DNA from: Deltaproteobacteria bacterium
Lineage (GTDB): Bacteria > Myxococcota_A > UBA796 > GCA-2862545
DNA length: 64,000 bases
Direction: 5' to 3'
Assembly (NCBI GenBank): GCA_006226595.1
Contig: SBGP01000091.1
Coordinates: 62,001 to 126,000, forward strand
The notes below the pieces were generated by a model. The model made no database searches. It saw nothing but the letters and a program-made list of their open reading frames with translations, and was not told the origin of the DNA. Positions 10,818 to 13,593 of the stretch are shown one piece after another (position 1 is the first letter of the stretch; each line of letters opens with the position of its first letter). The translations under genes were made by a program, and so were the position numbers.

Positions 10818-11420
10818 ATGGCCAAGCCGATCACAGTCACCTACCAGGGTGCGGAGAGCTCCTTCGACCACAAGAAGCTCGACCGCTCCAAGCTCTACGG
10901 CAAGCGCCAGCGCATGGTGCTCGACCCGAACGGCGAGCGCTGCGAGCGCGCCCGGCTCACCGACGACGGCGCCATCCTCGTGCGCTCGGGCATGGCCGCT
11001 CAGGCCTACTTCGATCCCGACGGCAACTGGGTCCCGAACAGCGAGCTCGTCGGGCTCTCGGCCGCCGGAGAGCCCGTGGACTCGGTGGGAAGCACGCTCG
11101 GCCAGGCCCAGGAGGCCCGAGAGGTCAGCCCCGAAGAGGCGCTCGACCTCAACGTGCGCGCCGTCTACGTCCTCACCCCCGAGGCCATCGACGCCGCGCT
11201 GTCCGCGGCCCTCGACGAGGGCAAGCTCTTCGCCTGCGACTACAGCTACCGCGGCGGCTACAACCTCGAGACCGCGCTGATCGTGCGCAACGACGAGGGC
11301 ACCTTCGCGCTCATCGGCTCACCGGCCGAGTCCGAGTGGCTCGAGCTCAAGCAGTTGCCCGTCGAGACCTATGACGACGACGAGGACGACGACGACGACC
11401 TCGACTTCGAGATGTTCTAG
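10818..11420 (+). CDS. Uncharacterised acidic-tailed protein, first gene of the DNA-ligase operon
   Basis: A 200-residue cytosolic protein that I do not assign to a named family. It starts at 10818 after CCGGAGG; a TAGGCT box at 10796-10801 could be its -10. The N-terminal third has a basic patch (SKLYGKRQRM) and the pattern LDPNGERCERARLTDDG, then YFDPDGNWVPNSEL. The last 25 residues are a run of Asp and Glu (DDDEDDDDDL) ending in FEMF. Such a tail suits a nucleic-acid mimic or a protein-contact segment. The next gene follows after 14 bases and the ligase gene after that, so the three form one operon. Function is unknown. Confidence 0.8.
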   Translation: MAKPITVTYQGAESSFDHKKLDRSKLYGKRQRMVLDPNGERCERARLTDDGAILVRSGMAAQAYFDPDGNWVPNSELVGLSAAGEPVDSVGSTLGQAQEAREVSPEEALDLNVRAVYVLTPEAIDAALSAALDEGKLFACDYSYRGGYNLETALIVRNDEGTFALIGSPAESEWLELKQLPVETYDDDEDDDDDLDFEMF

Positions 11421-11434
11421 GCCAGGAAGGACCT

Positions 11435-12139
11435 ATGCCCGTACGCAAGCTGCACATCGCCAACCAGGCGGGCCGCGACGCCACGGTCGCCATGGAGACC
11501 GCCAAGTCTCCGAAGGGCGCCAAGCTCGGCCACCCGGAGCTCGAGCTCGAGTTCCGCCAGTTCCTCGCCGCCGGCCCCGACGGCCTGCACGACACCCTCT
11601 CCGACAAGCTCGGCGAGGACTACGGCCAGGCGCTGATCGACGGGGATCCAGACGTGGACACCGAGCTCGTCGGCCGCTCGCTGGGGCGCACGTCCCCGGT
11701 GTACCTGTCGTCGACGGGCGAGGTGTTGTACGCGACCCCGTCGGTCGTCGAGGTGATCTTCGCGCCAAACGGCGAGGAGCGCGATCGGCGCGCGCCGACG
11801 GACACCGAGGCCAACGTCAACGATCAGCTGCCCGTGCGCTGGACCGGTCGCGCCATGCCGCGCCGCGACGTCGCGAGGCGCTTCGCATTCAAGCGAACCA
11901 TCCAGCTCAAGCACGTCGACGGCCTGACCTACGACTACCTGTACGCCATGGCCAAGGAGCTCGGCGACAAGGACGAGGTCGTGCTCATCGGCGGGGGGCC
12001 CAAGGGGCGTCAGCCGCTCGTGTTCCAGATCAACGGCACCCCGTACCGCGGCTTCCTCGAGGGGCGCGTGCAGGGCGACAAGTACAAGCTCCTGCTTCAC
12101 CTCTCGAACCTCGAGCTCAAGACGCCGGAGGAAGCATGA
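11435..12139 (+). CDS. Uncharacterised protein, second gene of the DNA-ligase operon
   Basis: A 234-residue cytosolic protein without signal peptide or membrane segment. The N-terminal 75 residues are mostly helical; the rest is beta-rich with FAPNGEERDRRAPTD, RRFAFKRTIQLKHVDGLTY and EVVLIGGGPKGR. The PNGE..R..D stretch resembles LDPNGERCERARLTDD of the gene before it, so the two may share a distant domain. Its stop overlaps the ligase ATG (ATGA), so the ligase is translationally coupled to it. I recognise no family; context suggests a ligase partner. Confidence 0.8.
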   Translation: MPVRKLHIANQAGRDATVAMETAKSPKGAKLGHPELELEFRQFLAAGPDGLHDTLSDKLGEDYGQALIDGDPDVDTELVGRSLGRTSPVYLSSTGEVLYATPSVVEVIFAPNGEERDRRAPTDTEANVNDQLPVRWTGRAMPRRDVARRFAFKRTIQLKHVDGLTYDYLYAMAKELGDKDEVVLIGGGPKGRQPLVFQINGTPYRGFLEGRVQGDKYKLLLHLSNLELKTPEEA

Positions 12140-13593
12140 GCCTCTACTCCACCGATCAGGCCCGTCCGTTCGGCGACGGCCAGCAGTCCCCGGCCGGCAG
12201 CATCGTCGACCCCGTCGTCGCCGGCATGGTCAGCGGCTACAAGCGCACCGTCGCCAGCCGCTACCGGGCCGTGCGTCCCGACGAGCTCGAGCTCGCCCTG
12301 CCTCCCGGTGCGCTGTGGGTGTCGCCGAAGATCGACGGACACCTGTGGTTCCTCGTGTTCGACCAGGGCGAGGCGATCCTCGTCAATCCGCGCGGACGCG
12401 TGATCTCGGGCAACGTGCCCCTGCTCAAGGAGGCTCAGTCCGTCGCGAGCCGCGTGACCACGCGCACCATCTTCGCTGGCGAGCTGTTCGCGCTGCGCAA
12501 GGGCGGACGTCCGCGGTCCGGCGACGTGTCCGCGGCGATGGGCGGCAACGCCGACGCGATGGTCGCGCGCCTCGGGTTCATGGCCTTCGACGTGCTCCTC
12601 GGCGGCGATGCCCAGACCACGCTGCCGGTCGAGTCCTACGAGCCCAAGCTCGAGCTCATGCAGCGCGTGTTCAAGGGCGGAAAGCGCGTGCAGTGCGTGC
12701 GCACCGAGCGCGTCATGGGCCACGCCGAGGTCTCGCGCCTGTACGGCGAGTGGGCCGAGGGCGGCAAGGGCGAGGGTCTGGTCGCGCGAAGCCTCGACGG
12801 CCGCACCTACAAGATCAAGCCGACCATCTCGATCGACGCGGTGGTCGTCGGCTTCACCGAGCGCGGCGACAACCCTGGTCACGTGCGGAGCATGCTCCTC
12901 GCCCTCGTCCGCGAGGACGGCCAGTTCCAGATCATCGGCTCGCTCGGAAACCTCGGCACCGACGACGTACGCAAGGAGCTGTTCGACAAGCTCGACGGCA
13001 CCGACGTCGAGTCGACCTACCGCCAGGCCTCGAGCGACGGCGCGCTGTACCGCTTCGTCGAGCCGAAGCTCGTCGTCGAGACGCTGATCACCGACGTCCA
13101 GAGCGAGGACTTCCGCGGAGACCCGGCCCAGCGCATGGTCCTCACCTTCGAGGACGGCGCGTGGAAGGCCACCCGCAAGATGCCGGGCGTGATCATCCTG
13201 TTTCCGCGCCTCGAGCGCATTCGCGACGACAAGGTCGCGAACGAGGTCGACTGCCGGATCGCGCAGGTGCTCGAGCGCTGCGAGGTCGCGGCCCTCGACC
13301 AGCATGTCGAGACCGTGGACCTGCCGAAGAGCGAGGTCGTGCGCCGGGAGGTGTGGACCAAGGCGTACCGAGGCAACACGAACATTCAGAAGCTGCTCGT
13401 GTGGAAGACGAACAAGCACGAGGTGGACGAGCGCTACCCCGCGTTCGTCATCCACTGGACGAACTACTCGCCCTCTCGCAAGGACCCCTTGCAGCGCGAT
13501 GTCCGACTCGCCGCCTCCGAGGTCGCCGCCAACGTGATCGCCGACGAGATGATCGAGAAGAACATCAAGAAGGGTTGGGACCCGGTGGAGTAG
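12136..13593 (+). CDS. ATP-dependent DNA ligase-like nucleotidyltransferase with C-terminal extension
   Basis: A 485-residue protein with the ordered motifs of ATP-dependent DNA ligases: motif I PKIDGH with adenylated Lys65, motif III AGELFA (Glu116), motif IIIa FMAFDVL (148-154), motif IV EGLVARS (Glu213), motif V YKIKP (Lys226, Lys228) followed by IDAVVVGFT, then an OB-like domain and motif VI FPRLERIRDDK (356-366). It should seal nicked DNA or RNA through an enzyme-AMP intermediate. There is no N-terminal DNA-binding domain. About 120 residues follow motif VI, including KAYRGNTNIQKLLVWKTNK, and have no known counterpart to me. It is coupled by ATGA to the gene before it. Confidence 0.88.
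   Translation: MSLYSTDQARPFGDGQQSPAGSIVDPVVAGMVSGYKRTVASRYRAVRPDELELALPPGALWVSPKIDGHLWFLVFDQGEAILVNPRGRVISGNVPLLKEAQSVASRVTTRTIFAGELFALRKGGRPRSGDVSAAMGGNADAMVARLGFMAFDVLLGGDAQTTLPVESYEPKLELMQRVFKGGKRVQCVRTERVMGHAEVSRLYGEWAEGGKGEGLVARSLDGRTYKIKPTISIDAVVVGFTERGDNPGHVRSMLLALVREDGQFQIIGSLGNLGTDDVRKELFDKLDGTDVESTYRQASSDGALYRFVEPKLVVETLITDVQSEDFRGDPAQRMVLTFEDGAWKATRKMPGVIILFPRLERIRDDKVANEVDCRIAQVLERCEVAALDQHVETVDLPKSEVVRREVWTKAYRGNTNIQKLLVWKTNKHEVDERYPAFVIHWTNYSPSRKDPLQRDVRLAASEVAANVIADEMIEKNIKKGWDPVE

Follow-up and report, generated by a model that had tools for sequence, protein, structure and literature searches.

What is the role of a bacterial operon in which an ATP-dependent DNA ligase is preceded by two proteins that match no known family? 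Such an operon is found in the window analyzed here, a stretch of 64,000 nucleotides from the genome of a Deltaproteobacteria bacterium. It comprises three genes, hereafter A, B and C, which lie on the same strand (+) with gaps of 14 bases between A and B and of −4 bases between B and C. This three-gene, same-strand layout had already been described from the sequence, and its coordinates, strand and gaps are all exact. The main features of the locus are the following:

10818..11420, + strand: gene A, 200 aa, with a predicted Ku/SPOC-like beta-barrel (residues ~1-172), an acidic linker and an LDFEMF C-terminal tip
11364..11417, + strand: acidic tail and conserved tip of A, DDDEDDDDDLDFEMF, with [LM]DFx in 45/48 orthologues
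11435..12139, + strand: gene B, 234 aa, conserved partner and probable diverged paralogue of A, from the A-B HHalign comparison and co-occurrence
12136..13593, + strand: gene C, 485 aa, ATP-dependent DNA ligase, whose start overlaps the stop of B (ATGA)
12328..12339, + strand: ligase motif I, KIDG, with the adenylated Lys65, from motif conservation in the alignment
12877..13233, + strand: OB-fold domain (PF04679) with motif VI, RxDK (residues 363-366), from a profile match
13345..13590, + strand: WGR-like C-terminal domain of C (residues ~404-485), from HHalign

Upstream of the triad are found a polyketide-cyclase/START-like protein, an M50 peptidase-like membrane protein and an opposite-strand protein without assigned function; a histidine kinase gene follows downstream. 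Across the other loci no neighbor families are conserved beyond the triad itself, and most of these loci sit among ordinary chromosomal genes that have no common neighbors. Promoter and terminator scans gave no signal above chance.

Partner families spread without any link to a ligase had been named beforehand as a refuting outcome, but the partners turned out to be tied to this ligase subfamily. Of 379 genomes of the phylum, 50 carry A, 50 carry B and 51 carry C (55 matches minus four weak ones, with E 1e-4 to 1e-7, read as LigD-type ligases), and all three occur together in 49. The gene order in these genomes is nearly always A-B-C: in the 54 loci B precedes C without exception, and A is found ahead of B in every locus except two. 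The pairwise identities of the three proteins are also correlated (mirror-tree, r 0.85-0.87). The arrangement thus recurs far beyond chance, which bears out the preliminary description of an undescribed nucleic-acid module. Two exceptions lie at contig ends (the triad starts at one in G324 and is cut by one in G219). In G218, gene A is located on another contig (G218:C6:276937-277542), intact and with its tip kept, and in the related G372 it is seemingly missing. In one locus of G030 (L014, 5317-6292), A (149 aa) and B (broken) carry internal deletions next to an intact C, from either decay or an assembly error. The triad is patchily distributed, also among members of a single family or genus. 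Beyond the phylum, it was covered by one scan of close relatives and by viral contigs; a search of 72,556 plasmids and 50,697 phages gave no homologue of B.

The ligase is the best characterized member of the triad. Its nucleotidyltransferase core includes K65-x-D-G (motif I), E116, F151-D152, E213-G214, K226/K228 and R363-x-D-K366 (motif VI). All the expected motifs are present, as had been proposed, and K65, D67, G68, E116, D152, E213, K226, K228 and R363-x-D-K366 are kept in nearly all of the ~49 aligned orthologues, so C is expected to be an active enzyme. The absence of an N-terminal DNA-binding domain is equally clear, since the motif I lysine is already found at residue 65, and the extension of about 120 residues reported after motif VI amounts to 119 residues up to the end of the protein. 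Against Pfam, C matches DNA_ligase_A_C (PF04679) at 4.9e-7, and the top NCBIfam model is the non-homologous end joining (NHEJ) ligase domain TIGR02779 (1.8e-11, under the curated cut-off). Among 26 orthologues, PF04679 is found in all and PF01068 in 21, while the RNA_ligase model PF09414 weakly matches nine (best 1.7e-5) and is outscored by the DNA ligase models. The ligase catalytic domain of LigD, with motifs I-VI, is therefore found in C, and the polymerase and 3′-phosphoesterase domains of LigD are absent in both Pfam and NCBIfam searches: C consists of the ligase domains plus the C-terminal extension. One candidate relative of C (L003) was rejected; it is a tyrosine recombinase matching over 98 residues, taken as chance. 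In one genome (G176, L039/L114), C is fused in a single open frame with a C-terminal AAA+ ATPase (PF00004, E 1e-39). The loci of family f5 have an NAD-dependent DNA ligase with a BRCT domain directly behind C, overlapping its end, so that the operon consists of four genes and includes ligases of two types (− strand, L017 5451-7319 and L021 1578-3434).

In PARPs, DNA breaks are sensed by the WGR domain, a type of domain that also reads nicks with a 5′ phosphate. In PARP2, this domain bridges 5′-phosphorylated DNA ends (PMC10235982). When the WGR profile was compared with the last 80 residues of C by HHalign, a probability of 89-90% was obtained (E ~2e-6). The score of 35.9 was reached by none of 100 column shuffles (null mean 10.7, maximum 20.0), and the controls with the ligase core, A, B and Ku all remained below 1%. 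The K, R and W positions are nearly invariant in this region. On profile comparison, the last 80 residues of C can thus be described as WGR-like, a likeness shared with the proteins of the WGR family (PF05406; PARP1-3, bacterial WGR proteins and a WGR-SWIM-ligase). C differs from them in two ways: the domain forms the C-terminal end of a ligase, and it has diverged beyond the reach of the Pfam model, which matches no C orthologue at E<=5. Other WGR proteins were noticed in the same set of genomes. The WGR-SWIM-ligase (L092, G020:C137) appears to carry an N-terminal WGR domain on another ATP-ligase, a second combination of WGR and ligase, in this order. In L076 (G037:C15), a WGR domain is followed by an apparent PARP catalytic domain, as in a bacterial PARP-like protein. 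Separate and diverse WGR-domain proteins are found in eight of nine triad genomes (G000, G015, G019, G026, G028, G030, G040 and G052) against just 16 among 58 relatives (p 5e-5 in a hypergeometric test, uncorrected for kinship).

Neither A nor B matches anything in Pfam, NCBIfam, PHROGs, PADLOC or PDB sequence profiles, and the Ku model PF02735 matches none of 27 A and none of 31 B orthologues at E<=5. A Ku-like pattern was nonetheless spotted in the alignment of A and then tested by HHalign and modelling. HHalign with a Ku profile built from 35 sequences, drawn from plasmids, mycobacteriophages and the phylum itself, gives A a probability of just 3%; of 200 column-shuffled Ku profiles, however, a single one scored as high, and under relaxed settings the alignment is collinear over the whole domain. 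A template-free AlphaFold2 model of A, built from three sequences, has low confidence (mean pLDDT 44.5, pTM 0.44; mostly 50-72 in residues 101-169). In Foldseek searches with this model, the top 14 rows from the PDB are all Ku (best E 3.0e-4, probability 1.00), and among viral models a phage Ku homologue (4.7e-4) and a mycobacteriophage Ku (7.9e-4) are followed by a third row at 6.5e-2. In VIA-align, Bacillus Ku ranks at Z 8.6 (3.3 A over 100 residues), a value at the edge of the tool's meaningful range, with TM-scores to Ku of ~0.3-0.4; Mycobacterium tuberculosis Ku (Z 8.5) comes next, and then INTS13/14 and MED25. The SPOC-like barrels of INTS13 and MED25 score only ~1-2 Z under Ku, and INTS13/14 and MED25 are members of the same SPOC/Ku-like barrel group as Ku. 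Protein B, modelled with the same alignment depth and pipeline, gave a poor model (pLDDT 41), with which Foldseek returned Ku only once (E 6, rank 48); Ku is thus not the default answer of the pipeline, whereas the fold of B itself cannot be judged from so poor a model. According to the modelled fold, A is probably a diverged Ku-core protein, an assignment that falls short of proof because the model confidence is low. The earlier view that the operon has no Ku or other known repair partner is thus probably wrong.

The C-terminus of A is in line with a recruiting function. The [LM]DFx motif is present at or next to the C-terminus in 45 of 48 distinct orthologues, typically as LDFEMF after a variable acidic linker, so that the tail ends in a near-invariant LDFxMF tip. 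The Asp/Glu tail had been likened to a nucleic-acid mimic; the tail is real and conserved, but the mimicry does not fit a tail that ends in a conserved hydrophobic tip. Docking tails, as in SSB, place such a tip behind acidic residues, and by this analogy the tail of A is better compared with a docking peptide than with a mimic of DNA. A recruiting tail would be natural on a Ku-like protein, since bacterial Ku recruits LigD via its C-terminal arm (PMC9638933).

Regarding B, its profile aligns with that of A in the central strands (HHalign 14-27%, E 0.0007-0.002), over all 100 shuffled controls. The predicted C-terminal halves of both proteins show a similar strand-helix-strand-strand-strand order, in models of low confidence. 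The PNGE stretch formerly noted in the two partners does occur in both; however, the profile alignment pairs the PNGE of B (111-114) with DPDG of A (~66-69) and not with the PNGE of A (37-40), so the exact match is fortuitous, although the two proteins do share a weaker, genuine similarity. Judged from these profiles, B is probably a diverged paralogue of A, which is the reason for considering an A-B heterodimer. Compared directly with Ku by HHalign, B does not rise over the null (48 of 200 shuffles).

How does the triad relate to known systems? In the host genome (97% complete), neither a PF02735 Ku nor a LigD polymerase is found, and the one other ATP-ligase has the N-terminal region typical of full-length ligases. 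Canonical Ku is present in 69 of the 379 genomes of the phylum, and six of the 51 triad genomes also hold it, so the triad is not a simple replacement of Ku. Neither exclusion nor linkage is clear (six genomes with both versus 9.3 expected, Fisher p 0.24). The triad resembles bacterial Ku-LigD NHEJ in the Ku-like fold modelled at low confidence for A, encoded beside an ATP-ligase in an operon, in its patchy distribution and in the top NCBIfam model of C. Genetic linkage to an ATP-dependent ligase, a trait of Ku, is also found for A. The differences are that A is invisible to PF02735 and ends in a conserved acidic tip where a basic C-terminus is usual, that B is added as a near-obligate partner, and that C has a WGR-like tail and neither POL nor PE domain. 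Eukaryotic Ku70/Ku80 with ligase IV likewise combines two possibly related partners with a ligase, and Ku70/80 is among the best structural matches of the A model; A and B, in contrast, lack vWA and SAP domains, and their heterodimer is hypothetical. The nearest operon precedent is DRB0098-DRB0100 of Deinococcus radiodurans, also three genes, whose ATP-ligase is likewise devoid of a conventional DNA-binding domain and adenylates but does not ligate alone (PMC1997131). Its partners, a PNK/HD protein and a macrodomain-like protein, are unrelated in annotation to A and B. A survey of bacterial NHEJ defined the pathway by homology to Ku and LigD (PMC7719229), criteria under which the triad would go uncounted.

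Taken together, we consider it reasonably probable that the triad is a divergent NHEJ-like system for joining DNA double-strand breaks. The Ku-core-like barrel of A would bind and hold DNA ends, probably as a dimer, and might heterodimerize with B there. C, an ATP-ligase without POL or PE domains, would be recruited to the ends through contact with A/B, for which the conserved acidic LDFxMF tip of A is a candidate site, and its WGR-like domain would engage 5′-phosphorylated ends or nicks before C seals them. A more specific version, in which A and B form a heterodimeric diverged Ku, the ligase is WGR-tailed and polymerase-less, and the tip of A recruits the ligase or another repair factor as parts of a distinct end-joining pathway, is put forward only tentatively. 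The same proteins might instead repair single-strand nicks or gaps, with A/B as a SPOC-like clamp or scaffold that loads the WGR-tailed ligase and no joining of double-strand breaks. The reading of 5′-phosphate nicks by WGR domains, the small Z distance between Ku and the SPOC-like INTS13 and MED25, the lack of the LigD polymerase in C and the NAD-dependent ligase directly behind C in the f5 genomes all agree with this; it is nevertheless unlikely, because Ku ranks first in either Foldseek library and is well separated from the next matches among the viral models.

A function in mobile elements or genetic conflict (phage or plasmid DNA circularization, integration, or anti-phage repair, spreading with such elements) would explain the patchy distribution. 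Moreover, one IMG/VR contig (IMGVR_UViG_3300014151_000148; L097/L118) encodes A, B and, up to the point where it breaks off, the beginning of C, together with a terminase large subunit, a ParB-methylase and a serine recombinase. A is fused in this phage-like contig to a tyrosine-recombinase-like core-binding domain, and a core-binding-domain-like protein also lies just upstream in L039/L114 (G176). This contig and the patchy distribution are, however, the only links of the triad to mobile elements: the defence models of PADLOC-DB 2.0.0 give no match, B is absent from the plasmids and phages searched, and the ordinary chromosomal surroundings of most loci also speak against such a role, which seems quite improbable, although the defence function suggested beforehand may still apply. 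Finally, the weak RNA_ligase matches of C might suggest RNA repair, with C as an RNA or hybrid ligase and A/B as RNA-end factors, but the DNA-ligase OB domain in 26/26 orthologues and the better scores of the DNA ligase models make this very improbable.

If the triad is indeed a divergent end-joining system, about one in eight genomes of the phylum would hold a break-joining system missed by standard annotation, most of them without canonical Ku. The Ku fold family would be extended, with a possible route from Ku homodimers to heterodimers, and a WGR end-sensing domain would be tied directly to a ligase.
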